From Methanosarcina vacuolata Z-761 (GTDB lineage Archaea; Halobacteriota; Methanosarcinia; Methanosarcinales; Methanosarcinaceae), in contig NZ_CP009520.1 of NCBI RefSeq assembly GCF_000969905.1, forward strand, positions 3,100,001 to 3,164,000: 64,000 bases of DNA, written 5' to 3'. The notes under the pieces were generated by a model. The model worked only from the letters and a program-made list of their open reading frames with translations, did no database searches and was not told where the DNA came from. The first letter of the stretch is position 1; each line of letters starts with the position of its first letter. Position numbers and translations under genes: made by a program. This document shows, piece after piece, positions 46,173-60,540 of this stretch.

Positions 46173-46418
46173 ATGGTAGAAACGTACAGGTTTTCAGCCG
46201 TAGTTCATAAAGAAGGAAAATGGTATGTTTCATGGTGCCCCGAACTTGATATTGCAAGCCAGGGAGAAACAATTGAAGAAGCCATTGAGAACTTAAAAGA
46301 AGCAATCGAACTCTATCTCGAAGACGAAGACGCTCAGATCCCCGCAGCTGGCCAGGTTTTTACCACAACGGTGGAGGTATCTTCCCATGCCAAAACTTCC
46401 CACCCCGTCAGCTCGTGA
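46173..46418 (+). CDS. hicB: HicB-type antitoxin
   Basis: 81 residues. HicB fold: YRFSAVVHKEGKWYVSWCPELDIASQGETIEEAIENLKEAIELYLE, the partly degraded RNase-H-like domain of the family. It overlaps the hicA gene by 32 bp. HicB binds and blocks HicA and usually represses the operon. The order is antitoxin first. Confidence 0.85.
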   Translation: MVETYRFSAVVHKEGKWYVSWCPELDIASQGETIEEAIENLKEAIELYLEDEDAQIPAAGQVFTTTVEVSSHAKTSHPVSS

Positions 46419-47598: not shown

Positions 47599-47805
47599 AT
47601 GCGGTTTACAATCAAACTTGAAGAATCTGAGGACGGAGGCTATACTGCCCAGTGCCTCGAAATTCCTGCTGCTATTAGCGAAGGAGATACTAAAGAAGAG
47701 GCACTTGAAAACATTAAGGAAGCTATTCAGCTTGTCTTGGAAGTAACAAGAGAGCAAGCTCAGGTACTGGGAGAAATCGCTACTGTGGAGGTTTCAGTTG
47801 GCTAA
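47599..47805 (+). CDS. hicB: HicB-type antitoxin (second pair)
   Basis: 68 residues: RFTIKLEESEDGGYTAQCLEIPAAISEGDTKEEALENIKEAIQLVLE, the HicB core. It overlaps hicA by 8 bp. The module lies between repeat copies A and B. Confidence 0.85.
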   Translation: MRFTIKLEESEDGGYTAQCLEIPAAISEGDTKEEALENIKEAIQLVLEVTREQAQVLGEIATVEVSVG

Positions 47806-48013
47806 ATTGCCTTCGACTTCCGGAAAAAAGGTTATAAAAGCTCTCGGAAAATTGGGTTTTGTCGTTGTAAGGCAGAAAGGAAGCCACGTAATTTTGCAAA
47901 GAGAATCAAACCTGGTCACCGTACCACTTCACGACCCTATTAAAAAATCTACATTAAACGCAATCCTGAAACAGGCTGATGTTTCACTTGAGGAGTTGCT
48001 TGAGCACCTTTAA
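47798..48013 (+). CDS. hicA: HicA-type mRNA interferase toxin (second pair)
   Basis: 71 residues: LPSTSGKKVIKALGKLGFVVVRQKGSHVIL, with the catalytic His in RQKGSH, then VPLHDPIKKSTLNAILKQADV. Starts at an ATG-less TTG overlapping the end of hicB (GTTTCAGTTGGC). Intact. Its sequence differs enough from the first HicA that the pairs are not recent duplicates. Confidence 0.87.
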   Translation: MAKLPSTSGKKVIKALGKLGFVVVRQKGSHVILQRESNLVTVPLHDPIKKSTLNAILKQADVSLEELLEHL

Positions 48014-48529
48014 TTTTAAGTAACTTTTTTGAACAGCTTAATTTTGTGCAAGATTTGATTGACTGAAACGGGGATTTTCGATTGCCTTCAGATGGGACAA
48101 CGCAGAGTATATTTCAAATAGACTACCTAATTATTTCTGTAAAAATATATTTCCCGCGCGTACTGTTCCCATCTTCCCCACCTACCGTTTTTTAGTTTTT
48201 GATCCTTCCCAAACCGATCCGCGACAGAATCTCTAGATCGTGAAATTCTCAAACCGGACCCCTGAATGCAAAATTTTTGATAGCGACCGGGAATTCCTGA
48301 GATACTTGTTAAAAGCGTCCGGAAGTGGTTTTGGAATTTACTGAAAGTCTCTCTTGAGGAACTGGGTGATGTGAAGGAGGTCATTTGAACTTTCCGGAAT
48401 CAGGGAGTTTGAGAATGTTCTAAGGATGCAGGAAAGGAAGAAGGAGGAGAGGGGAAGATTTGGCGGGATTTTCTTACTTTGGTTTTAGATGGGGATTGTG
48501 TTTTGATTGAAATGGAAAAACTGGCTTCT
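48014..48529. other. Gene-free region holding repeat copy B
   Basis: Between convergent hicA and the DUF1016 gene. Most of it is copy B; no coding frame is convincing. Confidence 0.7.
48133..48480 (+). repeat. ~320 bp dispersed repeat, copy B
   Basis: Uninterrupted copy: it has GAATCTCTAGATCGTG where copy A carries the MITE. It extends further right than A (GGAGGTCATTTGAAC, GAGTTTGAGAATGTTCTAAG), a part shared with copy C. Confidence 0.9.
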
Positions 48530-49549
48530 TTACTTTATTTCCTCCAAGAATTTCGAAATTTCTTCAGGAGAAGGTAATTTTCCTTTGAGTTTTTCTGGCA
48601 GGGTAGAAACGATTCTGTACTCAGCAACTCCAATCGGCTTGTTTGATTCGCGAAGAGCATATTCTACAATGGTTTTGTTTCTGGATTTGCAGAGGATGAT
48701 GCCAATAGAGGGATTTTCGTGGGGTTGCTTTACAAAATCGTCCAAGAGGGCCAGATAAAACTGCATTTTTCCTATGTATTCTGGGAAGAATTTGCCAATT
48801 TTAAGTTCTACTGCGATGAGACAATTTATAGCCCGGTGGAAGAGAAGAAGATCGATGAAGTATTCTTCATCTTCTACCTGAATGCGGTACTGACTGCCTA
48901 TAAAGGCGAACATTCCTCCCATTTCACGAAGGAAAACTTCCAGTTTTAAGAGAATTTCCTTCTCCAATTCCTTTTCTGAGTGTTTTTCCTCAAGTTCGAG
49001 GAAATCGAATATATATTCGTCCTTGATTGCTAATTTTGCCTGAGATTGAATTTCTGCTGGAAGGGTTGTTTTAAAATTCGTCTGGTTGAGCAGAGTCTTT
49101 TTGTATGTATCGTTTTCGATCTGAACTATCAGAACGTTTTTTGTCCACCCGAATTTTCGGGTTGTACGTAGATAAAACTCGCGTTCAAGGTCATCTTTAC
49201 ATTTTTCCATAATCACTATATTATGAGTCCACCCAATTTCTCGCACCAATGGTGCGAGTTTTTGATTATCAGTATATGTGAGATAAAACATCCTCATGCG
49301 CCAGATATTTGAAGCAGAGAAACCCCTTACCCCCGGAAACTCCTCTTTTAGGTCTTTTGAAAGCTGGTCGACAACGGACTTGCCCCATGTCTCACTTTTT
49401 TGCCTTTCAACAATCAACTTTCCAATATCCCAGTAAACTGAGATCAATTCCCTGTTTACAGCTTTTAAAGCCTCGTACTGACCTTTAAGGATTCGATTTT
49501 TGATTTCCCCGAACAGTGTCTTATATTCAGAAGTTCCAATATCTTTCAT
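48530..49549 (-). CDS. DUF1016/YhcG-family PD-(D/E)XK nuclease-like protein
   Basis: 339 residues, typical full length. The N-terminal DUF1016 helical domain (VNRELISVYWDIGKLIVERQ, GFSASNIWRMRMFY) is followed by the nuclease-fold C-terminal half, with ELEEKHSEKELEKEIL, YFIDLLLFHRAINCLIAVELKIG (D and ExK catalytic pattern) and IGIILCKSRNKTIVEYAL. Family members are associated with mobile elements and restriction or defence loci. Cytoplasmic. The intact IS1634-type element sits 52 bp upstream of its start and may affect its expression. Confidence 0.88.
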   Translation of the reverse strand: MKDIGTSEYKTLFGEIKNRILKGQYEALKAVNRELISVYWDIGKLIVERQKSETWGKSVVDQLSKDLKEEFPGVRGFSASNIWRMRMFYLTYTDNQKLAPLVREIGWTHNIVIMEKCKDDLEREFYLRTTRKFGWTKNVLIVQIENDTYKKTLLNQTNFKTTLPAEIQSQAKLAIKDEYIFDFLELEEKHSEKELEKEILLKLEVFLREMGGMFAFIGSQYRIQVEDEEYFIDLLLFHRAINCLIAVELKIGKFFPEYIGKMQFYLALLDDFVKQPHENPSIGIILCKSRNKTIVEYALRESNKPIGVAEYRIVSTLPEKLKGKLPSPEEISKFLEEIK

Positions 49550-49730
49550 ATAATCACCCCCTGAAAAAATTACATAAATGAGTTCTATCTTTCTCTTTTA
49601 TTTACATTTCGACCCCCTTTTAATTTTTCCACCGAATTTTCGTAGACTTTGTAGTATTTGCCCCTTTTTGGATTCTAATTGGTTGAAAATATTCATTAGT
49701 TCATCTTCCCTCTATTGAATTCAACCCAAA

Positions 49731-49754
49731 ATTCCATAGCTTCAGCTATGGAAT
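49731..49754. terminator. Perfect hairpin at the transposase 3' side
   Basis: 10 bp stem ATTCCATAGC / GCTATGGAAT with a TTCA loop, inside the insertion sequence and downstream of the transposase stop. It could terminate transposase transcription or block read-through. Confidence 0.6.
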
Positions 49755-49792
49755 TTGATTTTTATGTTCTACGTGCTTTACAACTAAGGGGA

Positions 49793-51631
49793 TTATCCTG
49801 TTTCTGAGTGAAGTCCCAACAGCTCTAACAACTTGCACAGATGATCTGCTTTCCCAGACTTTGAATAAATAATATGTTCATCCCCTACAGTGACAACACT
49901 ATGCAGTGAAAATAACCTTAACAATTTATCCGCAGTAGGATTCACTAAAGGTCTTCCAGCAAAATCAATTAGTGATGGCTCATTTTCATTTTTAAGGTTC
50001 ATTCTGGTGATAACCCTCATCAATACCCTTATGAGCAGTGAAACATGAAGCAACATCATCAACGCATCAATACGCTCAGGTTTTTCTAGGAAAATGGTAG
50101 ATACCATAGTAGGTTTTTTCAATTCTTCAAAATTGGCTTCGATAACTCTTTGTTTTTTGTAATCCTGAAGTATCTGCTTATTGTTTTTTTCATCTGCTGG
50201 AATGTTGGTAATTAAAACAAAGGATTCTTTGTCCTGTTTGTACTCTTCCACACGCTTCTCATTTTCGGTCAATTTATCCAGCTTGACTACAAATTTTTCA
50301 ATAATAGTAGGAGGCTTTTGATCTTTAGAAGGTCTTCCTCTCGACCTTTTTTCTGTGACTATTTTTTCAACACTGAGTTTAATGTCAAGCAATGAGTTTT
50401 TATGCTTCTTAAGGAACGCACCAATTTCTTTTTCTGCGTCTGGTTCACAGGAAAATGGTTCCTTAAACGACTTCTTTACGTCATCCACAATCGCTTGTTT
50501 CTCTTTTTCAATACTCTTTTTTACTTTGCTTTCCGCATCATCACCCTTGATCACAACCAATCGAAGCTTATTTTTATAGATAGTTTTCACAAAACCTTGA
50601 GCATCATATCTTGCAGCTCGTTTTGATTTTTCATCTTCACAACAAATTCCAAGATATTCCCAATCATTCAGCAAATAAGCTTTTTTTATCGCTTTTTCAG
50701 CAATTTTAGAGTTAAAATTGGAAGGACAGTGAGATATAAATCTTATTGGATCTTTATCTCCGTATATAATCTCTATATTCTTTTTGTTAACCAGTTTTGA
50801 ATCTGCTATAAATGTATAGCCACCACAACTATCACCAAAAAGTCCCTGCAAATATTGTATTGCACTCTTAAACCAGGTACTATCTGCAGTATTTCCATCC
50901 AGTGTTTGTTCATATACTGGAATCCCATATTCATCTACAAGCATTCCAGTCATAATTTGCTTCATTTCAGGGTGCTTGTCTTTACTGTGTCCATGAGTTA
51001 CATTCAACCCTTCATAACCTTCCTGTTCACAGACCTTACATTCTCCGTAAAATACATGGGATGTTGTGTCTGCATGAAGTATATGGCTAACAGGGATTTT
51101 GAAATTCACATAAGAATTGGCTGCTATTCTGCTAAATAATCCAGTACTACCTGCCTCAGCAATCCGATCCAGTAATTTCGCAAGATGATCATCATTGAAA
51201 TCAGTACGTAGATAATTCCCACCAAAAAGAAGCTTCAAGTCAAGACCTTCAAGTGCTTCTTCAATGCGGTAAAGAGGACATCTTTTATCATTTCTTAAAA
51301 AGGGAGTTAAAATGATACTTCTTGCAAGTGTTGCAGGAGAAACTGACCACTGATCTTTATCCCATCTAACATTATCATTGATGATCTCGTCAAAGCCGAG
51401 TATGTCAAGAAACTCGCGGCAAACGATTAAAACGAAAGGTGTTTCCGTTTTTTGGGAGAAAGTTTTGGCATTTAAAAGGTGGGATATTTTTTTAAAATTC
51501 TTAGTACCTTTTGCAGAAGGAGAAAGCTTTTTGGTTTTTGCTTTTTGATCCGTTTTTTTCATGTAAGATATTATTTGAAAGATATTATTGAAAAAAACTT
51601 TGACAAAAAATCCATTTGATGTCGTAATCAA
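49793..51631 (-). CDS. Transposase, IS1634 family
   Basis: 612 residues (first likely Met at 51561, MKKTDQ, gives 589). Landmarks: VSPATLARSIIL, the first Asp in ILHADTTSHVFYG, MLVDEYGIPVYEQTLDGNTADS, the second Asp in YTFIADSKLVNKKN, and the Glu in YKKQRVIEANFEELKKP. Full length with no break. Confidence 0.92.
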   Translation of the reverse strand: MITTSNGFFVKVFFNNIFQIISYMKKTDQKAKTKKLSPSAKGTKNFKKISHLLNAKTFSQKTETPFVLIVCREFLDILGFDEIINDNVRWDKDQWSVSPATLARSIILTPFLRNDKRCPLYRIEEALEGLDLKLLFGGNYLRTDFNDDHLAKLLDRIAEAGSTGLFSRIAANSYVNFKIPVSHILHADTTSHVFYGECKVCEQEGYEGLNVTHGHSKDKHPEMKQIMTGMLVDEYGIPVYEQTLDGNTADSTWFKSAIQYLQGLFGDSCGGYTFIADSKLVNKKNIEIIYGDKDPIRFISHCPSNFNSKIAEKAIKKAYLLNDWEYLGICCEDEKSKRAARYDAQGFVKTIYKNKLRLVVIKGDDAESKVKKSIEKEKQAIVDDVKKSFKEPFSCEPDAEKEIGAFLKKHKNSLLDIKLSVEKIVTEKRSRGRPSKDQKPPTIIEKFVVKLDKLTENEKRVEEYKQDKESFVLITNIPADEKNNKQILQDYKKQRVIEANFEELKKPTMVSTIFLEKPERIDALMMLLHVSLLIRVLMRVITRMNLKNENEPSLIDFAGRPLVNPTADKLLRLFSLHSVVTVGDEHIIYSKSGKADHLCKLLELLGLHSETG

Positions 51632-51684
51632 TATGATAAAAAAATAAATTATGTTTAATTTTTAAGGGGGGGTCGAAATGTAAA

Positions 51685-52352
51685 CTTTTACAGGCGCATT
51701 CAGTCGTATCTGCCTTTACGCATAATTTCCATTTGTTTTGTAGCAAATTTCTCGCACCAATGGCGCGAGATTTTAAAAGTTTACATTTTCAGTTTCTTTA
51801 CGTCTCATTTAAATTTACTCAGGTAAATTATTTGTGACTAAAATCCACGTTCAGGAATTTCTTGACTGAGTTTGAGGTCTGTGAATTAGAGGTAAATTAA
51901 TTATTAATGTTCACGCTGGCTCACAATCGAATAAAAGTCAAAACGGTCTGGATATTTCTGTAAAAATATATTTCTCGCACGTACGGCTCCCTCTCTCCCC
52001 ACCTACCGTTTTTTCCAAAATCATGGAATTCTCAAACCGGACCCCTGAATGAAAAATTTTTGATAGCGACCGGGAATTCAGAAGATACTTGTTAAAAGCT
52101 TAAGGAGGGGGTTCTGAAATTTACTGGAAATATCTGTTGGGGAACTGGTTGATGTGGAGGAGGTCATTTGAACTTGCCGGGATCGGGGAGTTTGAGAATG
52201 TTCTAAGGGTGCAGGAGAAGAAATAAGAGGAAAAATGGGAGAGTTGAGGGAGGGTTTTGCTTACTGAGGTTTTTATGCAGGAGGTGAGGAGTGAAGGTCT
52301 GCGGAAAGTATTTTATATATTTATAAGTAGTTGAAATTGTGGAATTATTATT
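51685..52352. other. Gene-free region with a short DUF1016-like fragment and repeat copy C
   Basis: 668 bp. Beside the insertion sequence a 26 bp stretch (51747-51772) almost repeats part of the DUF1016 gene (49236-49262). Then follows repeat copy C. No complete gene. Confidence 0.6.
51954..52280 (+). repeat. ~320 bp dispersed repeat, copy C
   Basis: Same order of conserved blocks as A and B, in the same orientation. It lacks the stretch between TACCGTTTTTT and the CTCAAACCGGACC block. It lies immediately downstream of the methyltransferase operon. Confidence 0.9.
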
Positions 52353-53264
52353 TCATATGATTACAGTAGAAGACTCTAGTTCTTTCAGATCAAATTTTTC
52401 AAGTGTATTGGTGCGATTTTTTTCAGACACATCATAGTTTGTGATCAAAAGCTCGCTCCCTCTTTTTAATTTTTCTTTTTTTACATTAGTCATTCCATAT
52501 GCTAAATTCCAAGGAGTTATATGTGCAAAACTAAAAAGGTCTCTTATTTCAGGCGAATCATCACAAGTTAAAAGCCACTTATGTTTGCATTTTTTTACAT
52601 CTTCAGCAAATTTTTGATGGTCAAAGCTGGTGTGCAAATTGCCATTTATCCCGTACAATTTTGAATTTTTTGACGTTAAATATGGAGGGTCTAAGAAAAT
52701 AAAGACATTATCACCGGGTTTATTTAATAAATAAGTATAATCATTGTTTGTAATCTTTACGCCATTTAACAGATTTGATAATGGTACTAGTTTGTCAATC
52801 ATTGAAGATGTAAATCTTTTGTCATACGATTCTTGAGAGTAACCTCCTGAATCAATAAGTCCCGAGAATGTGATCCTATTCAAAATGAAGAATCTAATTG
52901 CCCTCTCAAATTCACTCCATTCACAAGTTTTATTTCTATAATATTTGAAAAGATCTTTACCTGAGTTGAACTGATTTTTCATTGAAATTACAGCGTCTTT
53001 AAATATTTCCCCATCTTCTTGTAAAAACTTCCAGAAATAGTACAAGTCAGAATTTATGTCGTTTATTGAGAAATTAGTGCAATCCGGCATTTTTTGTTTG
53101 ATTGCAATAAATACCGATCCGCCGCCCACAAAAGGTTCTCTAAAATTCTTAAAGTGCGGAGGTACAAAATCCAAAATTGTTTTTAAAGCTTTAGATTTTC
53201 CTCCTGGATACCTTAAAACAGAACTCACTCTAGAACGCATACTCATCTTCGTCTTCATCTTCAT
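52353..53264 (-). CDS. D12-class (Dam-type) DNA adenine N6-methyltransferase
   Basis: 303 residues. D12 family motifs: RYPGGKSK at 18-25 (motif X), FREPFVGGGSVF at 41-52 (motif I, SAM binding) and the catalytic DPPY at 192-195 (motif IV). The order X-I-TRD-IV is that of Dam/DpnM enzymes. Methylates adenine in a short DNA site; the site is not readable. It overlaps the upstream gene by 4 bp and is last in a six-gene operon, so methylation probably marks self-DNA for the HerA/NurA/SMC-like proteins encoded ahead of it. Confidence 0.92.
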   Translation of the reverse strand: MKMKTKMSMRSRVSSVLRYPGGKSKALKTILDFVPPHFKNFREPFVGGGSVFIAIKQKMPDCTNFSINDINSDLYYFWKFLQEDGEIFKDAVISMKNQFNSGKDLFKYYRNKTCEWSEFERAIRFFILNRITFSGLIDSGGYSQESYDKRFTSSMIDKLVPLSNLLNGVKITNNDYTYLLNKPGDNVFIFLDPPYLTSKNSKLYGINGNLHTSFDHQKFAEDVKKCKHKWLLTCDDSPEIRDLFSFAHITPWNLAYGMTNVKKEKLKRGSELLITNYDVSEKNRTNTLEKFDLKELESSTVII

Positions 53265-54190
53265 TTCTTTTTTTTTGCTTTATCGAGTTCTTCCCATAAT
53301 GCACTATTTTCTGCTATCTTGAATAAGGAATTACTTATTGCGTTTTGATAACAAATATCAGCAAATATGAAATTGGTTAATTCTTCTAAACTGTATACAT
53401 AGTTTTTATGGGTATATAATATATTATTGCAAAAAGAATCAATCTTAGTTTGATCCTCAAAAGAGAGGTTTCCACCGAATACTTTCCATAATAAATAACT
53501 AAGTTTCTCTTCAGAAATCATTCCTTTTTCTTCATCATAAATATCTAACCAACTTTTCCCTTCTTTTTCATTAAATTTGTATATTCTTCTTGTATTTTGG
53601 GGAAGATTAACTAATCTGGCAAAAACTGAATTAACAGGGCTTTCTCTGGTCTCGTCAGGAATACTGTACTTAAAGCCTTCTATTGAGTTATTTAAGAACT
53701 CTATTGTCTTTAAAATAATTTCATGAATATTTTGAATGGCTTTTTTTCCATTTTTTCTATTAAGAGGTGTTTTTTCATGAAAAGATCGAAGGGCAATCAG
53801 AGAGAGAATAACAACTTTTTCCTTGTCGGTCAACTTTTCTCCCCAGCTTATATCATATTTATATTCATCTATATCATCCATCAACTTTGTTAAACTTATT
53901 TTATCTAAGCGCCTTTCTACTTCCCAAACACCCTTCGCAGTCATGACATATTTAGACAAATCATTTCCACATCGAATGAATCCTCTTTCTATTAATTCAT
54001 TAATAATTTGAGGATCTGCATTTTCGGAAAAAACTGCAGAGTTATCCAAGTTCTGCATTACATTATTTTTTCGTTCTCTTAATAGGGTCAAAAAAATAGA
54101 ATCTTTATGTACTTTGGCCGTGCTGGATATCTTTTTTGACAGCTCATCATAAAAACTCTCTTTCAAAACCAACAAGCATTCTTCTGACAT
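53261..54190 (-). CDS. Operon protein of unknown function, probable winged-helix N-terminus
   Basis: 309 residues from the ATG at 54190; the frame is open to a TTG at 54217 inside the SMC-like gene. Residues about 65-95 (PQIINELIERGFIRCGN...YVMTAKGVWEVERRL) look like a winged helix. The rest is helical with no known motif and no membrane segment. It lies between the SMC-like ATPase and the methyltransferase, coupled to both by overlap or near-overlap. A sequence-recognition or adaptor role is possible but not shown. Confidence 0.7.
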   Translation of the reverse strand: MSEECLLVLKESFYDELSKKISSTAKVHKDSIFLTLLRERKNNVMQNLDNSAVFSENADPQIINELIERGFIRCGNDLSKYVMTAKGVWEVERRLDKISLTKLMDDIDEYKYDISWGEKLTDKEKVVILSLIALRSFHEKTPLNRKNGKKAIQNIHEIILKTIEFLNNSIEGFKYSIPDETRESPVNSVFARLVNLPQNTRRIYKFNEKEGKSWLDIYDEEKGMISEEKLSYLLWKVFGGNLSFEDQTKIDSFCNNILYTHKNYVYSLEELTNFIFADICYQNAISNSLFKIAENSALWEELDKAKKKK

Positions 54191-54200
54191 TATTGCACCA

Positions 54201-56372
54201 TCAACAGAGCTCTTCAATCGTTAAATCATTATCGACAGCTTTTGCAAAAACTGCCATTAATATTTTATTCTGTTTGATTTGTTTTGCAAGAATATTTTGG
54301 ATAGGCTTAAGAGAATTAGAGTCCATAGTTGCACCTTCATCAAAAATAACAATCATTCTCCTTTTATCATCTTCTGGCCTATTTAGTATTGCTTGAATAT
54401 ACATACTCATTGATTGACCAGTACTGATGTCTTTCATATCAATTTCCCTGCCATCTTCAAGCAATATCGATTTATTTAAAAAATCGATTTTAGTTGGTTT
54501 CAGGAACTCGTCAATATAAGGAAATTCTGGTATTTTATTTGCAAAATAATGTGAAATCGCTTCATTATATTGCTTTTCAATCTCTGAGTTTAGTTTATCT
54601 CCTTTGGATATCTTATTGATAATTTCATCATACTTAGCAAAATTTTTGTCAAGCGTATCAATCAACTTACTTAGACGATCAATCTTTGTAGCGTGTGAAT
54701 GATATTTGTGAGGCTCTTTGCTTTCTAATGTTTTTAATTTATCCTGCGTTTGTACCTTTATATTTAGGATCTCATTTTGTTTTCTTTTGTGCTCTTCTAA
54801 TTTTTTTCCCCTGTTTTGGATTTCTATTATAAAAGATTCTTCACCTTGCATGAAAACATTACTATACTTTGGATACTGAGCAAGGATTTGTTCTCTTTTA
54901 TTAATTATTTCTCCTGGGTCCGAATTTTCATCGATAACCATATTATTTTTCTTTGCTAAGTTTTTGTAGTAATCTATTTTTTCGATTATAGGCTGAAGCT
55001 CTTGATTTATCCCAGCAATGTTATTATCTATTTTTTCATCATCATTTTTAAGTAATGACCTATCTCTTTTGTCAGACAGCATTCTTAGACTTTCTAAATC
55101 CTGTTGTAAATTTTCAATTTCCGATTCAGTTTCAGATATTATCTCCAGACAAGTATGCAAATCATCATAAATATATTTAAAAGTCTTGTTATTATCATAT
55201 TCCTTTTCAAGTAGTTGTATAAACTCGTCTATACTTTTATCAAAACCGGGAATTGAGATTTCTATAGACCTGTATTGCTTAAATACATTTATGAGTTCCT
55301 GATAAAATGAGCCCTTCTTCCCAGATTCCCGGATATTTTTTTCTCCAAGATAATTATTTATTTTTTTCTTAAAGAATAGAAACTCAGAACATATTTTTGA
55401 GTTTACTGTATATGTTTTTATACATTCTTCCCACTTGATAGCTTTTATCTTGTCTGTATGCAGTTTCACTTCGTCCAAACCACGATTGATAAAAAGCTGT
55501 TCTAAAGTGCAACTTAAGTTATAAACTGATTTTTTTATTTTATTTATATTTGATACAATTTTTTCTTTTTTATTTTCATATTGCGTATTGAATCGTTTTA
55601 CATTAGTACGATTTTTAGATTTATTTTTGTTTTCTATATCAATAGCCTGCATTAAATATAGTGAGTTTTGAATATACTTCTCAAATTCTCTCAGCGACAA
55701 ATAAAGTTCCAAAATACCGATTTCTTCTTGAAGCTCTTCAGTTGCATCATTTATTTTTGTTTCTTTATCAGTATACTCAGATAGAATAAATTTCAATCTT
55801 TCAATTTCTTGATCATTTCTTGAATGCGCAATTTCTGATTTCACTTCCCCAAGATAATTTCTAAAATTAGATATTTTGTAATGATATCTATTTTGTTCGT
55901 TCTTAACTTCACTTAATATTTCTGTAATATGATTCAGAGGATCTTCAGGAATATCATATACTAAAAAATATTTCTCTTTGAATGTTTGCAAAGGGATATA
56001 CGTTTCTTTGTCGTCGATTATTTCTTTAATTGTGATGTCTTTTGAAACAGGATCTTCTTTAGATGAGATTAGTTTGATTTTACCGTCTTTGCTTGTGAGA
56101 ACTAGATTAAAAGTATAATCTTGATTTTGACGTGAAGCCATATATTGTATATCTGATCGAAGAGATTTAGAAATCCGACAATCTGAATCTTCAAGTCTGT
56201 CTCCATAAAGTGCAAGAGCAATGATATTTAAGAATGTGCTTTTTCCTCTTGCATTAGGGGCTTTTATATAAACGGCGTTGCCATTTATTTTTCTTAGCTT
56301 CGGATCTGTATTAAATATACGCTGATGATTCTCCCCTTCTTTTCGTAAAATCTCGTACTCTACTTCTAGCAC
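54201..56372 (-). CDS. SMC/Rad50-like coiled-coil ATPase
   Basis: 723 residues, GTG start behind GGAGGAG. Walker A APNARGKST at 38-46. The middle ~550 residues are highly charged and coiled-coil (two long arms, around 150-260 and 410-620). Near the C-terminus an ABC-type signature STGQS (650-654) precedes Walker B IVIFDEGATMD (674-684). This is the split-ATPase plan of SMC, RecN and Rad50, in a small form without an obvious zinc hook. Probably loads on or senses DNA; inference from the family. It lies between the 46-residue gene and the unknown protein. Confidence 0.85.
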   Translation of the reverse strand: MLEVEYEILRKEGENHQRIFNTDPKLRKINGNAVYIKAPNARGKSTFLNIIALALYGDRLEDSDCRISKSLRSDIQYMASRQNQDYTFNLVLTSKDGKIKLISSKEDPVSKDITIKEIIDDKETYIPLQTFKEKYFLVYDIPEDPLNHITEILSEVKNEQNRYHYKISNFRNYLGEVKSEIAHSRNDQEIERLKFILSEYTDKETKINDATEELQEEIGILELYLSLREFEKYIQNSLYLMQAIDIENKNKSKNRTNVKRFNTQYENKKEKIVSNINKIKKSVYNLSCTLEQLFINRGLDEVKLHTDKIKAIKWEECIKTYTVNSKICSEFLFFKKKINNYLGEKNIRESGKKGSFYQELINVFKQYRSIEISIPGFDKSIDEFIQLLEKEYDNNKTFKYIYDDLHTCLEIISETESEIENLQQDLESLRMLSDKRDRSLLKNDDEKIDNNIAGINQELQPIIEKIDYYKNLAKKNNMVIDENSDPGEIINKREQILAQYPKYSNVFMQGEESFIIEIQNRGKKLEEHKRKQNEILNIKVQTQDKLKTLESKEPHKYHSHATKIDRLSKLIDTLDKNFAKYDEIINKISKGDKLNSEIEKQYNEAISHYFANKIPEFPYIDEFLKPTKIDFLNKSILLEDGREIDMKDISTGQSMSMYIQAILNRPEDDKRRMIVIFDEGATMDSNSLKPIQNILAKQIKQNKILMAVFAKAVDNDLTIEELC

Positions 56373-56373
56373 A

Positions 56374-56514
56374 CTACTCCTCCATCACATCTAGTAATTT
56401 TTCAAGTAGCTCCTCCTCAAAATATCCCTCTGAAATTAATTGCAACACTTTGACTTGTTTGTCGTCATCTATAAGCTTAGATAAAAGCGAAAGTATCGAT
56501 ACATCTGTATCCAT
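56374..56514 (-). CDS. 46-residue acidic protein inside the HerA-NurA operon
   Basis: ATG at 56514 immediately after the HerA stop (TAAATG) and stop 1 nt before the GTG of the SMC-like gene. The product, starting MDTDVSILSLLSKLIDDDKQ and ending LLEKLLDVMEE, is acidic and helical. Its 3' end carries the Shine-Dalgarno of the next gene. The tight packing suggests a real gene. No family recognised; it may stabilise or regulate one of the neighbouring ATPases. Confidence 0.6.
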   Translation of the reverse strand: MDTDVSILSLLSKLIDDDKQVKVLQLISEGYFEEELLEKLLDVMEE

Positions 56515-58122
56515 TTAACTCCCTCTCTTTATTACACCAGCAAAAGCCAATGGAAACTTTAACATTTTTAATTGCGACATCTCATGGATATTTGCAACAG
56601 CAAAACCTTTTTCCAAATTTTGGATTTCACTATCAGAGATATTAATTCCGTGAGTTCTAGCAATTCCTGAATCGGATTTAAAGAAAATTTTAGTATTGAT
56701 AACGTTAGAAAGCCCTCTTGGAATATCGCTAGGATTTTGTGAAGAGAAAATTACACCAATTTCTTGACTCCTACCTTGGCGGCAAATGGTATCTAAATCC
56801 CCAAGTGCTTCTTTAGAACTCTCGGTATTATAAAATTGGTGAACTTCATCTATTATTATAAGAATAGGAACATTACTTCGGTTAGAACTTTTTAAATCAA
56901 CAATCTGATGAAGTAAATGTCTTAGTAATACAGAGCCAAATGTTTTTGATTTTTCATCTTCTAAATCAATTACAGACATCATCCCATGCTGGAGTATATC
57001 TTTTCCACTCAATTTGTAAGCTTGCGAATCGTCAAAATAAGCTCTTGCGATATTTAAATTTCTCAAAATATTAGATGCTGTTCCTGGAGCAAGAGGTGCA
57101 ATCCCAAAATCTCCTCTAGCAAACCTTATTGGAAAACGATTTCTTTCATCTTCTCTTTGGTTAATTTCAGTGAACCAATTAACAAAGTTATTAAAAGTTA
57201 TTTCATTTGCTTCGTTTGTTTCATATCTTTCCTCACGCCAATATCTGAAAATATCAGGTAGATATTGTGCTGCAATATCACTAATGGATTGAAGTATTCC
57301 GTTGAGAGCTTCAGGTTCTATTGTACGCACATCTAAGGAAATTGATTGTGTTATAGTTGGTGTTACCCCTCGAGTTGGTTTGATAGTAGTTGTCGCAGGA
57401 TAATATACTTTGAAATTATCGACTTTGCGTTCTTTTTCCCCAATAAATTTCCACTCCTTTCTAATATCCTCGTTCAAGTGGTTTGAAGGCTTATCCATTT
57501 TCAAAAAGTCAACATCTTTCACATTTATTGCAAGGACTGCTCCTCCCTTGTCAACGAAATGTTGTGCAAGATATTTAGTAGCTACTGTTTTTCCGCTTCC
57601 TGTTTTACCACATACCAAAGTCTGGTAGAAAAATAAATCACTTGGAAGATAAGTGTACAAAAAATTGTTGTTATCATCTACTAGAACTTGATTTTTGTTG
57701 CCGTGTACTGTTGCAAGAAAAACCTTTGGACCTCTTTTTGTGTTTTCATCCAACTTATTATGTCCCATAGCGATGTCAATCTCATCCTGATTTGAACGCC
57801 TTGCTACTGAAAGGATATCAACAACATTTACTTTACCGTCAGTTCTCTCGTTGAGATCTTTAATAACACGTGCAGATATTATATTTTGCCATTTTAAATC
57901 AGCTTTTATTTTTCCTAAATCCATGTCCACAGTCATTGGTGAAGGACTATATGGATACTCTTGACTGCTTTCCTCAACTTGTAAAACAAAAAGAGGTTTA
58001 TTTTCATTATCAGTGTCAATTATAGTTAAATAAGAACCTTTTGGAAGAAGGCCAGATGTCCCTCTTTTGGAAACAAGTTTATATCTATTATCCCTGTCAG
58101 GAGCTACCACAATCCATGTCAT
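56515..58122 (-). CDS. HerA-type hexameric DNA translocase ATPase
   Basis: 535 residues. Walker A GKTGSGKT at 172-179 and Walker B ILIIIDE at 420-426, with the HerA/FtsK sensor-type segment RQGRSQEIGVIFSSQNPSDIPRG after it. The N-terminal ~150 residues may be the HerA-barrel (HAS) domain. HerA hexamers drive DNA through the NurA nuclease dimer in archaea. The stop of the NurA-like gene is 4 bp upstream. This copy belongs to a different operon from the canonical rad50-mre11-herA-nurA one, which is not in the window. Confidence 0.87.
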   Translation of the reverse strand: MTWIVVAPDRDNRYKLVSKRGTSGLLPKGSYLTIIDTDNENKPLFVLQVEESSQEYPYSPSPMTVDMDLGKIKADLKWQNIISARVIKDLNERTDGKVNVVDILSVARRSNQDEIDIAMGHNKLDENTKRGPKVFLATVHGNKNQVLVDDNNNFLYTYLPSDLFFYQTLVCGKTGSGKTVATKYLAQHFVDKGGAVLAINVKDVDFLKMDKPSNHLNEDIRKEWKFIGEKERKVDNFKVYYPATTTIKPTRGVTPTITQSISLDVRTIEPEALNGILQSISDIAAQYLPDIFRYWREERYETNEANEITFNNFVNWFTEINQREDERNRFPIRFARGDFGIAPLAPGTASNILRNLNIARAYFDDSQAYKLSGKDILQHGMMSVIDLEDEKSKTFGSVLLRHLLHQIVDLKSSNRSNVPILIIIDEVHQFYNTESSKEALGDLDTICRQGRSQEIGVIFSSQNPSDIPRGLSNVINTKIFFKSDSGIARTHGINISDSEIQNLEKGFAVANIHEMSQLKMLKFPLAFAGVIKRGS

Positions 58123-58126
58123 TTTC

Positions 58127-59194
58127 TCACCTAAATCCTCTCGCTTGATTCATAGTCGGTTGAAATGTGGATTCCAACATAATTTTGTTCAAATTATACA
58201 TTTTCTTGTTTTCACGTGCAAACTTTTCAGCAATTACAATTGGTCTTATTTGAGAGTTTTTGGTTTCACCTTGAATTAAATAGAAATAAAATATGACATC
58301 CATTAACTGGGTTACTAATTCCTTGTGTATATAGTAGGTTGTAGGATGAAATTCGATTCTTTGGGGTGATGCCTGAAAAGGTTTTATGTAACAGAATACT
58401 TTGGAGTTTTCAGGGACCACTTGATCGGTATACCTAAAAAAATTAGTTCTTTGGCCTATACCTAAATAGTTATGTGCCCAATGCATATCTGAATTAAACT
58501 TTCCATTCAATTCCAGGGTATTGTCAGTAACGAGATTACTCGAGCTATTTTTTACAACAAATATTGGAATGATGTGTTTTCGCAATAATTCCGCATTCAA
58601 CTTAATATTGAATCCAGTCATTTGTTTTCCAACGAAAGGACCGTCGATGAAAAGGATACAGTTCTCTGGTACGTTCGATAAGATAAACTTATTTCTATCG
58701 CTTGCGTAATCTCGTTTAAATACAACTTCTATCTTGTCTTCATTATCCATAGATTCGACATCAGCTGTTTGAACAACATTAGCATCTTTTAAATCACTAT
58801 TTTTTTCTAATAGAAGCTTTGAACGAGTGTAAAAGTTAAAAGATAAACATGTGGATGCTAAGTAATCGTCGTCATCTATCATTATGAGAGAGTGACATGT
58901 TAGGTATCCAGTACCCTCTAAAACTTGAAATACATCAAAAGACTCATCGTAACCTAAAAACATATACTGATTAATAAGATTCTTTCCTTTCAAAGCATCT
59001 AAAGCAATATTGTTAAATTCCTCTTCTAGAGTTAGTTTTCCCGAACTAGAGTGGTAGTCATCTTTTACGATGTTTGGAGAAATAGGTATTTGTGGCAAAT
59101 CAATATCTCTTTTTATGGACTCCACTTTTTCTTTGAATTGAGGATGAAGAAAAAAGTTGTTTGAAAAATGTATCTTCTCCATTTTATCCTCCAA
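58127..59194 (-). CDS. NurA-like nuclease
   Basis: 355 residues, NurA size. NurA-like features: FIDGPF at 182-187 (central acidic DG motif), followed by IPIFVVKNSS; RIEFHP at 279-284; and RPIVIAEKFAREN at 317-329 near the C-terminus, a position where NurA proteins have an A-H/E helix. The first DGS motif is not obvious (possible site around D83-E84, GYDESFD). It is the first gene of the operon, directly ahead of herA, as in archaeal HerA-NurA pairs. The assignment is by pattern and context; a profile search would settle it. Confidence 0.6.
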   Translation of the reverse strand: MEDKMEKIHFSNNFFLHPQFKEKVESIKRDIDLPQIPISPNIVKDDYHSSSGKLTLEEEFNNIALDALKGKNLINQYMFLGYDESFDVFQVLEGTGYLTCHSLIMIDDDDYLASTCLSFNFYTRSKLLLEKNSDLKDANVVQTADVESMDNEDKIEVVFKRDYASDRNKFILSNVPENCILFIDGPFVGKQMTGFNIKLNAELLRKHIIPIFVVKNSSSNLVTDNTLELNGKFNSDMHWAHNYLGIGQRTNFFRYTDQVVPENSKVFCYIKPFQASPQRIEFHPTTYYIHKELVTQLMDVIFYFYLIQGETKNSQIRPIVIAEKFARENKKMYNLNKIMLESTFQPTMNQARGFR

Positions 59195-59697
59195 AAATAC
59201 TTAAAAATAATCACTTGTTTATAGAAATAAGTATGTTATCCTAAATATGTCTTGCGAAAAATCTTGTATTTTCCGAATTAATTGTGTTATTTACAATATG
59301 TAAAGTCATATATTTCAATAGGTAATTTCGGAAGATCCAATAGATAACCATGAAAGTTTTGGAGGCTATGGAGAAAGCAGCGAAGCTATAACTGGAATAA
59401 CAGACCACCGATAAAATAATTTAGAAGAAGCCGCTTTTTCTTTTTATAAAGAATTCCTTTTATCTTTAATGATTTCCTTATTTTCCCACAGAACCACGTG
59501 CAGTACTAAGGAATGATTTAAGTATAATACCAAGGTATTTGTTGCCAAGAATCATTATTGAGATAATGAAAGTATGGATCAATTTCTGAACTGCAAATTT
59601 GAAGTTATATTTTTATCATTCCTAAACTCAACTCTCAATATTTTTTCAAGTATTTGATAATAATACTATTATACCCCGCAGGCAAAATAAACACTTT
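59195..59697. other. Divergent promoter region of the HerA-NurA operon and the MBL gene
   Basis: 500 bp. On the minus side, TTGGAGGATAAA gives the ribosome-binding site of the NurA-like gene, and TTTCTATAAACA about 50 bp upstream is TATA-like. A 30-codon frame (EDPIDNHESFGGYGESSEAI region, about 59322-59415) is probably chance or a gene scrap. Otherwise A+T-rich. Confidence 0.5.
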
Positions 59698-60540
59698 ATG
59701 AAACTCACCGTCCTTGTTGATAATAACACCCTTATTGACAGGTATTTCTTTGCCGAGCCCGGTTTGTCTTTTCTGCTGGAGGATTCAGGCATACGAGTTC
59801 TTTTTGATACCGGGTATTCGGATATCTTCCTTACAAATGCCCGGAAAATGGGGCTTTCACTTCTGGACCTTGATTATCTGGTCCTATCCCACGGGCACCT
59901 GGACCACACCTGGGGACTCGAACATCTGGTACGTTTATTCACAGAAGCAGGGATAGAAAGGCTTCCCAGCAGACCTCCGGTTCTCATTGCCCATCCCCTG
60001 GCCTTCGAAAGCAAAAAAACTGAAGAGATAGGGGAAATCGGAAGTCTGTTCACTCCCAAAAAGCTTTCAGAACACTTCAGGCTACAGCTCTCAAGTACTC
60101 CCCTCTGGCTGAGCGAGAAGCTCGTTTTCCTTGAGGAAATCCCCAGGAAATTCACTTTTGAGGCAGAGACAGCTGTCGGATATGTGCAGGACAGCGAGGG
60201 GAACAAAATTCCAGACCTCCTTCCGGATGACACGGCACTCGTATACAGGGCAGAAGCAGGGCTCGTAATCATCACGGGCTGTTCCCACTCCGGGATCTGC
60301 AATATTACCGAATATGCAAAAGAAGTCTGTGGAGACAGCAGGGTCCTTGATATAGTAGGTGGCTTTCATCTTCTGGAACCCTCAGAAGAACGGATGCGTG
60401 GGACCCTTGAATACCTTAAAAAACTTGATCCCGGCTGCGTGCATGCCTGCCACTGTACGGACTTAAACTCAAAAATCGAGCTTTCAAAGGTTTGCAGGCT
60501 TAAAGAAGTTGGAGTTGGCCTGCAGATTGAGTATTTTTAA
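59698..60540 (+). CDS. Metallo-beta-lactamase-fold hydrolase (COG1237 type)
   Basis: 280 residues. MBL motif SHGHLDHTWG (HxHxDH) near residues 64-73; further metal ligands in ITGCSHSGICN and CHCTD. The N-terminus VDNNTLIDRYFFAEPGLSFLLED matches the COG1237 family, which includes a protein related to dihydropterin/ribofuranosyl-aminobenzene phosphate synthase of methanopterin synthesis, though most members are uncharacterised. Monocistronic. Confidence 0.85.
   Translation: MKLTVLVDNNTLIDRYFFAEPGLSFLLEDSGIRVLFDTGYSDIFLTNARKMGLSLLDLDYLVLSHGHLDHTWGLEHLVRLFTEAGIERLPSRPPVLIAHPLAFESKKTEEIGEIGSLFTPKKLSEHFRLQLSSTPLWLSEKLVFLEEIPRKFTFEAETAVGYVQDSEGNKIPDLLPDDTALVYRAEAGLVIITGCSHSGICNITEYAKEVCGDSRVLDIVGGFHLLEPSEERMRGTLEYLKKLDPGCVHACHCTDLNSKIELSKVCRLKEVGVGLQIEYF

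Follow-up and report, generated by a model that had tools for sequence, protein, structure and literature searches.

A six-gene operon in Methanosarcina vacuolata

The window analysed here, a 64-kb stretch of the 4.56-Mb genome of Methanosarcina vacuolata Z-761, carries at 52353-59194 a six-gene operon, entirely on the minus strand. Its genes encode a NurA-like nuclease and predicted effector (gene 1, 58127-59182, 351 residues), a HerA-type hexameric DNA translocase (gene 2, 56515-58122, 535 residues), a helical protein of 46 residues between the HerA and ABC genes (gene 3, 56374-56514), an ABC/SMC-like ATPase without zinc hook, the predicted sensor or loader (gene 4, 54201-56372, 723 residues), a winged-helix-like protein (gene 5, 53261-54190, 309 residues) and an M.CbeI-like DNA methyltransferase (gene 6, 52353-53264). 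All six open reading frames listed in an earlier note on this DNA exist and needed small corrections only. The spacing of 0-4 bp or overlaps given there is right for NurA-HerA (4 bp), HerA-small protein (0), small protein-ABC (1 bp) and the 4-bp overlap of gene 5 with the methyltransferase gene, but not for the 10 bp between the ABC gene and the start of gene 5 (ATG 54190). Because a GGAGG ribosome site lies just upstream of it, within a TTG-started reading frame, ATG 59182 is probably the NurA start. The operon is richer in A+T than its surroundings, as the note had said, with a G+C content of 31.8% against 38.4% for the window.

Domain content and a modelled RNase H-like fold identify the product of gene 1 as a divergent NurA. 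The window protein taken singly reaches E 0.002 and 18.1 bits against PF09376, under the Pfam cut-off of 21 bits, and 18 of 18 members of its family match the domain at E <= 0.1 (best 3.6e-12). Its AlphaFold model (pLDDT 82) finds Sulfolobus NurA (2ygk) as best PDB match (Foldseek E 6.4e-7), with the Thermococcus kodakarensis HerA-NurA structures also among the matches, while a search of PDB sequences with the NurA profile gave no relevant match. The motifs DGP and FVKN are common to this protein and the host's own NurA. Gene 2 is assigned to HerA from its HerA_C (2.1e-11) and DUF87 (1e-6) domains, both above cut-off, and from the Walker A/B and sensor Q elements of the HerA/FtsK ATPases; the motifs GKTGSGKT, IIIDEVH and SSQNP are kept in six aligned loci. 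The nuclease and translocase proposed in the earlier note are thus borne out, and this true HerA-NurA pair is the obvious effector, as also claimed. The host has a second pair, HerA of 818 and NurA of 442 residues, encoded together at another genomic place, so that housekeeping repair need not depend on the operon copy.

The small protein of gene 3 belongs to no known family, and each intact locus inspected has an equivalent reading frame at this place, flanked by herA and the ABC gene. Comparison with the copy in L009, a relative at 65-85% identity to the window locus, gives pS 0.90 against pN 0.15, indicating purifying selection. A fusion of the small gene with the ABC gene in L017 was ruled out, since the reading frames differ. 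In a Thermoplasmata bin (L030:4540-5020) an in-frame stop interrupts the small-protein frame and the ABC gene ends early, which may reflect decay, a mixed contig or codon reassignment.

Gene 4 encodes an ATPase of the SMC/Rad50-like class, as the note had it, with conserved Walker A, TGQS signature and FDE motifs; a CxxC zinc hook is absent from all 19 family sequences, some of them partial. No relevant match was obtained with either the ABC or the gene 5 profile among PDB sequences. Gene 5 evolves fast (17-33% identity across loci). In its confident model (pLDDT 89.4) the elements of the N-terminal region follow a winged-helix-like order, the fold noted earlier as possible, but there is no significant match in the PDB or among viral models, the weak top hits, offered as a lead only, being MukF, MukE and MarR-type regulators. 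Its identities covary with those of the ABC ATPase (r=0.90-0.95), and gene 5 is predicted to be the DNA-binding partner of that ATPase.

Conservation and co-evolution of the five-gene core

With the NurA-like protein as query, 21 core loci were found, 16 of them complete and with the constant order NurA-HerA-small protein-ABC-gene 5, a recurrence beyond what chance would give. Complete archaeal loci comprise the window, L009, other Methanosarcinales, Pacearchaeota, Methanosuratincola, Thermoplasmatota and L037, from the same phylum, whose gene 5 was identified from where it lies; the others are from Mucilaginibacter, Chitinophagales, Neobacillus, another member of the Bacillota, Neomarinimicrobiota and one IMG/VR contig. 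The remaining five loci, including ones labelled Prometheoarchaeum and Hyphomicrobiales, run off their contigs or are broken (L030). Many loci come from metagenome bins, where single taxon labels may be wrong, whereas Mucilaginibacter and Neobacillus are named isolates.

The core is rare, being found in 7 of 150 genomes of the order and 5 of 393 of the phylum. NurA searches of about 395 Bacteroidota and 398 Bacillota genomes added no genome beyond the seed genomes, and NurA and HerA had no match in about 50,700 phage and 72,600 plasmid records. This distribution supports a patchy and horizontally moved core. Among the 16 complete loci, pairwise identities of NurA, HerA, the ABC ATPase and gene 5 are strongly correlated (r 0.57-0.92, all p <= 0.0005), with r 0.80-0.95 across 10 loci of the same methyltransferase type. 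Such covarying divergence is what would be expected of parts of one machine, and all five core genes are under purifying selection.

The methyltransferase and its linkage to the core

By annotation, gene 6 encodes a D12 adenine methyltransferase, and the earlier note took it for a Dam-type adenine enzyme. That assignment is rejected: the closest solved relative is 7m6b, which is M.CbeI (E 7.9e-89), far ahead of DpnM (3.9e-13) and Dam (about 1e-6). M.CbeI carried an adenine-specific annotation too, yet proved to produce N4-methylcytosine at GGCC (PMC3425538). As M.CbeI is the closest characterised relative, the mark of gene 6 is predicted to be m4C at GGCC and not adenine methylation at GATC, a specificity carried over from M.CbeI as a fellow member of the subfamily. 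More generally, M.CbeI-like enzymes match D12/Dam adenine models, while the studied member makes N4-methylcytosine at GGCC, and the adenine-specific automatic annotation of this subfamily is probably wrong. The genes beside the window methyltransferase include no recognisable separate restriction enzyme: of a type II restriction-modification system of HaeIII/CbeI type, the methyltransferase is present, with no endonuclease gene recognised next to it.

The tie between operon and methyltransferase put forward in the earlier note is upheld. In the same sample of 150 genomes of the order, four have an M.CbeI-like enzyme (E <= 1e-60), and all four carry the core, with the enzyme adjacent to it; the chance that all four fall within the seven core-bearing genomes is about 1.7e-6 if shared ancestry is ignored. 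A DNA methyltransferase (D12, PF01555, type I or C5) lies within about 3 kb of the core in 15 of the 16 complete loci, and D12 enzymes flank it in 12 of them, on either side and in either orientation. Elsewhere, a PF01555 methyltransferase lies 55 bp downstream of the core (L027; the incomplete locus L013 has one too), a type I hsdM-hsdS-hsdR set about 1 kb from it (Neobacillus, L023), and a C5 methyltransferase is accompanied by GmrSD, FRG and HNH genes (L024). Among the complete loci, L014 alone has no methyltransferase nearby, nor was an M.CbeI-like gene found in its genome. The methylation partner is thus exchangeable, its types varying, yet almost always present. In Mucilaginibacter (L020:1310-3509), the NurA gene is overlapped by a methyltransferase closest to PD-Lambda-5_B (2.1e-125) and an upstream protein of 447 residues that carries a ParB-like GNRR motif, which looks as though the core had received another methylation module.

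Methylation-guided action of the system is plausible, with the reservation that the methyltransferase is swapped from locus to locus whereas the core stays, and that L014 has none nearby. The same facts can be read as a defence core that responds to DNA ends or replication intermediates whatever their methylation, as has been proposed for other SMC-like defence systems, with the methyltransferases being no more than frequent island neighbours or a separate layer of modification. This would account for the varying type, position and orientation of the methyltransferase and for its incongruent divergence (r 0.34-0.48 with the core, falling to between -0.05 and 0.23 once the window copy is left out), from which it follows that the core may not read the methyltransferase's mark; a weak match of the ABC ATPase to LmuB (1.5e-7) also fits. 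The near-exclusive occurrence of M.CbeI-like enzymes beside the core in the sampled order is, however, hard to explain by neighbourhood alone, and we consider a methylation-independent core unlikely, although likelier than the other rival readings.

A chromosomal site with exchangeable defence cargo

The operon occupies a variable segment (52296-59621) replaced by other DNA in sibling genomes. In the close sibling G132, whose SerRS is 98% identical to that of the host, and in G1281, the flanks (51690-52295 and 59622-59857) align with those of the window, whereas the 7.3 kb between them do not and give way to unrelated stretches of about 11.8 kb and 4.9 kb, respectively. The G132 cargo (L054:6060-15567) comprises, read by eye, seven genes (GNAT, TGT-like, DUF4007-like, STAND-like, DUF6079-like, PglZ-like and HerA) and resembles in these motifs the published BREX-related capture (BRC) system (PMC12839542). 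The G1281 cargo (L056:7314-11659), also read by eye, has a methyltransferase with an SPPF motif, a HerA-like ATPase of 669 residues and a 445-residue protein with NurA-like IDGG and DGPL motifs; compared directly with HerA and NurA, its HerA link is weak (BLAST 2e-5) and its NurA link marginal. This cargo may represent a HerA-NurA-methyltransferase system of simpler make-up at the shared hotspot.

The site behaves as a defence hotspot. The window neighbours given earlier (toxin-antitoxin pairs, a DUF1016 nuclease and a recent insertion) were confirmed as a HepT-nucleotidyltransferase pair, a DUF1016/YhcG nuclease and a transposase, joined by a HicB-like gene. Relative to G132, in which the flanks 48132-48639 and 51685-52012 are nearly contiguous, a segment of about 3 kb (48640-51684) that contains both the DUF1016/YhcG nuclease and a transposase of DUF4277 type is an insertion. 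Near the island lie the HicB-like antitoxin gene (46173-46418, a weak Pfam match) and, 1.4 kb from it, a HicA/YcfA-like reading frame recognised by eye (47798-48013).

Other copies of the core likewise lie near defence genes (hsdMSR, GmrSD, FRG and HNH). One core copy, L031, is on an IMG/VR contig near a Mu-F-like gene, and L037 adjoins replication-type genes (read by eye), as would be expected if the operon were mobile-element cargo serving the element itself, for instance by excluding competing elements or processing its own DNA; but a single virus-like contig, the lack of any match in the phage and plasmid records searched and the defence genes adjoining several copies make this improbable. 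About as improbable is a DNA repair or recombination operon like the archaeal Mre11-Rad50-HerA-NurA one, with the ABC ATPase replacing Rad50 and a regulatory methyltransferase, for although the same enzyme classes are linked in thermophilic archaea (PMC2288612, PMC12977600), the operon is patchy and absent from sampled genus mates, has no recognised Mre11 and no zinc hook, is tied to methyltransferases, shares its site with other cargo in siblings and coexists with a separate host HerA-NurA.

Proposed mechanism

The gene set, the shared evolution of the core, the enzyme families, the methyltransferase link and the defence-type location together point to a mobile restriction-modification-like defence system, with HerA-NurA as effector, the ABC ATPase and winged-helix-like protein as sensor or loader and methylation as self-mark, which we think is probably, if by no wide margin of confidence, what the operon encodes. 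Within it, genomic evidence gives good support to the roles in defence and as effector, while methylation would act as the switch and the ABC ATPase as the sensor.

In such a system, the M.CbeI-like methyltransferase would mark host DNA (predicted m4C at GGCC), and the ABC/SMC-like ATPase, the winged-helix-like protein and the small helical protein would inspect DNA for free ends, missing marks or both. The ATPase and its partners would then load or license HerA-NurA, whose HerA hexamer would pump DNA into the NurA dimer for cutting of both strands. Incoming viral or plasmid DNA, typically linear, would be destroyed, the attack proceeding from DNA ends. We infer complex formation, the sensing step, the methylation off-switch and the target of the mark. 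By analogy with Rad50 and DndD-DndE complexes, which are thought to do so in their own systems, recognising DNA and loading or unlocking the engine would fall most readily to the ABC ATPase with gene 5 and the small protein. The T. kodakarensis HerA-NurA pair breaks down both strands of linear dsDNA, and the authors of that work proposed an antiviral role (PMC12977600); by the same token, the operon's pair may be the destroying engine, acting from DNA ends. T. kodakarensis NurA does not cut circular dsDNA (PMC12977600), which counts against our main reading, since an attack on circular DNA would then be unexplained.

A bolder formulation, which we hold tentatively, is that these loci represent a distinct, 'RecBCD-like' immune system of archaea and bacteria: a resection motor of repair type, HerA-NurA, would have turned into a methylation-gated, both-strand exonuclease, licensed by a sensor made of the SMC-like ABC ATPase and winged-helix-like protein and combined with an exchangeable self-mark, mostly N4-cytosine (GGCC).

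It is not yet settled whether HerA-NurA acts in repair or in defence against viruses (PMC12977600). As the pair described here is mobile and apart from the host's own, tied to DNA methyltransferases and placed in a hotspot of HerA cargo, a defence role is directly testable. Beyond Rad50, the cluster offers a further connection of SMC-like ATPases with HerA-NurA, and it suggests that m4C may be the self-mark of a nuclease motor instead of a type II enzyme.

Comparison with known systems

The earlier note did not recognise the gene set, and no matching named system emerged from PADLOC or the literature searched. In PADLOC-DB 2023 no system has all its essential components matched by the operon, the matches being a generic methyltransferase and HerA, weak ones to SMC/ABC and none to NurA. 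The published papers covered, on HerA capture, Dnd, BREX/BRC and HerA-NurA, describe other sets, and an earlier mention elsewhere is possible.

The archaeal Mre11-Rad50-HerA-NurA operon also combines HerA and NurA with an SMC/Rad50-like ABC ATPase. In contrast, the present operon is mobile and patchy, in a host with a separate canonical HerA-NurA pair, and adds a winged-helix-like partner, a small protein and a methyltransferase; membership was rejected, there being no Mre11 match among the six genes and no CxxC in the 19 ABC sequences. Lamassu consists of the SMC-like ATPase LmuB and the effector LmuA, and was also rejected: the match of the ATPase to LmuB is partial, and none of the six genes matches LmuA.

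Sir2-HerA, HerA-DUF4297 and the HerA/FtsK capture systems including BRC pair a HerA-type motor with a nuclease or other effector in defence islands (PMC11291478, PMC10853773, PMC12839542). Here, the effector is NurA, accompanied by the ABC ATPase, winged-helix-like protein and methyltransferase, and none of the PglZ, DUF6079 or DUF4007 parts of BRC/capture systems was recognised in the operon. Pbe/CxC and Dnd likewise have a small protein, a coiled-coil ABC ATPase, a fast-evolving DNA-binding partner and a nuclease, sometimes with cytosine methylases (PMC10853773). They differ from the operon, in which matches to PbeC are weak only (7.7e-5 and 0.0084), no CxC hook and no HKD-SF2 nuclease were recognised, and the model of gene 5 is winged-helix-like, not ribbon-helix-helix; PbeABCD/CxC-DndE membership was rejected on these grounds. 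Finally, M.CbeI/CbeI and HaeIII-type type II restriction-modification systems share a close methyltransferase, whereas in the operon the HerA-NurA core sits in the place of their endonuclease. On these comparisons, the cluster is best seen as a variant of HerA-effector, methylation-linked defence.
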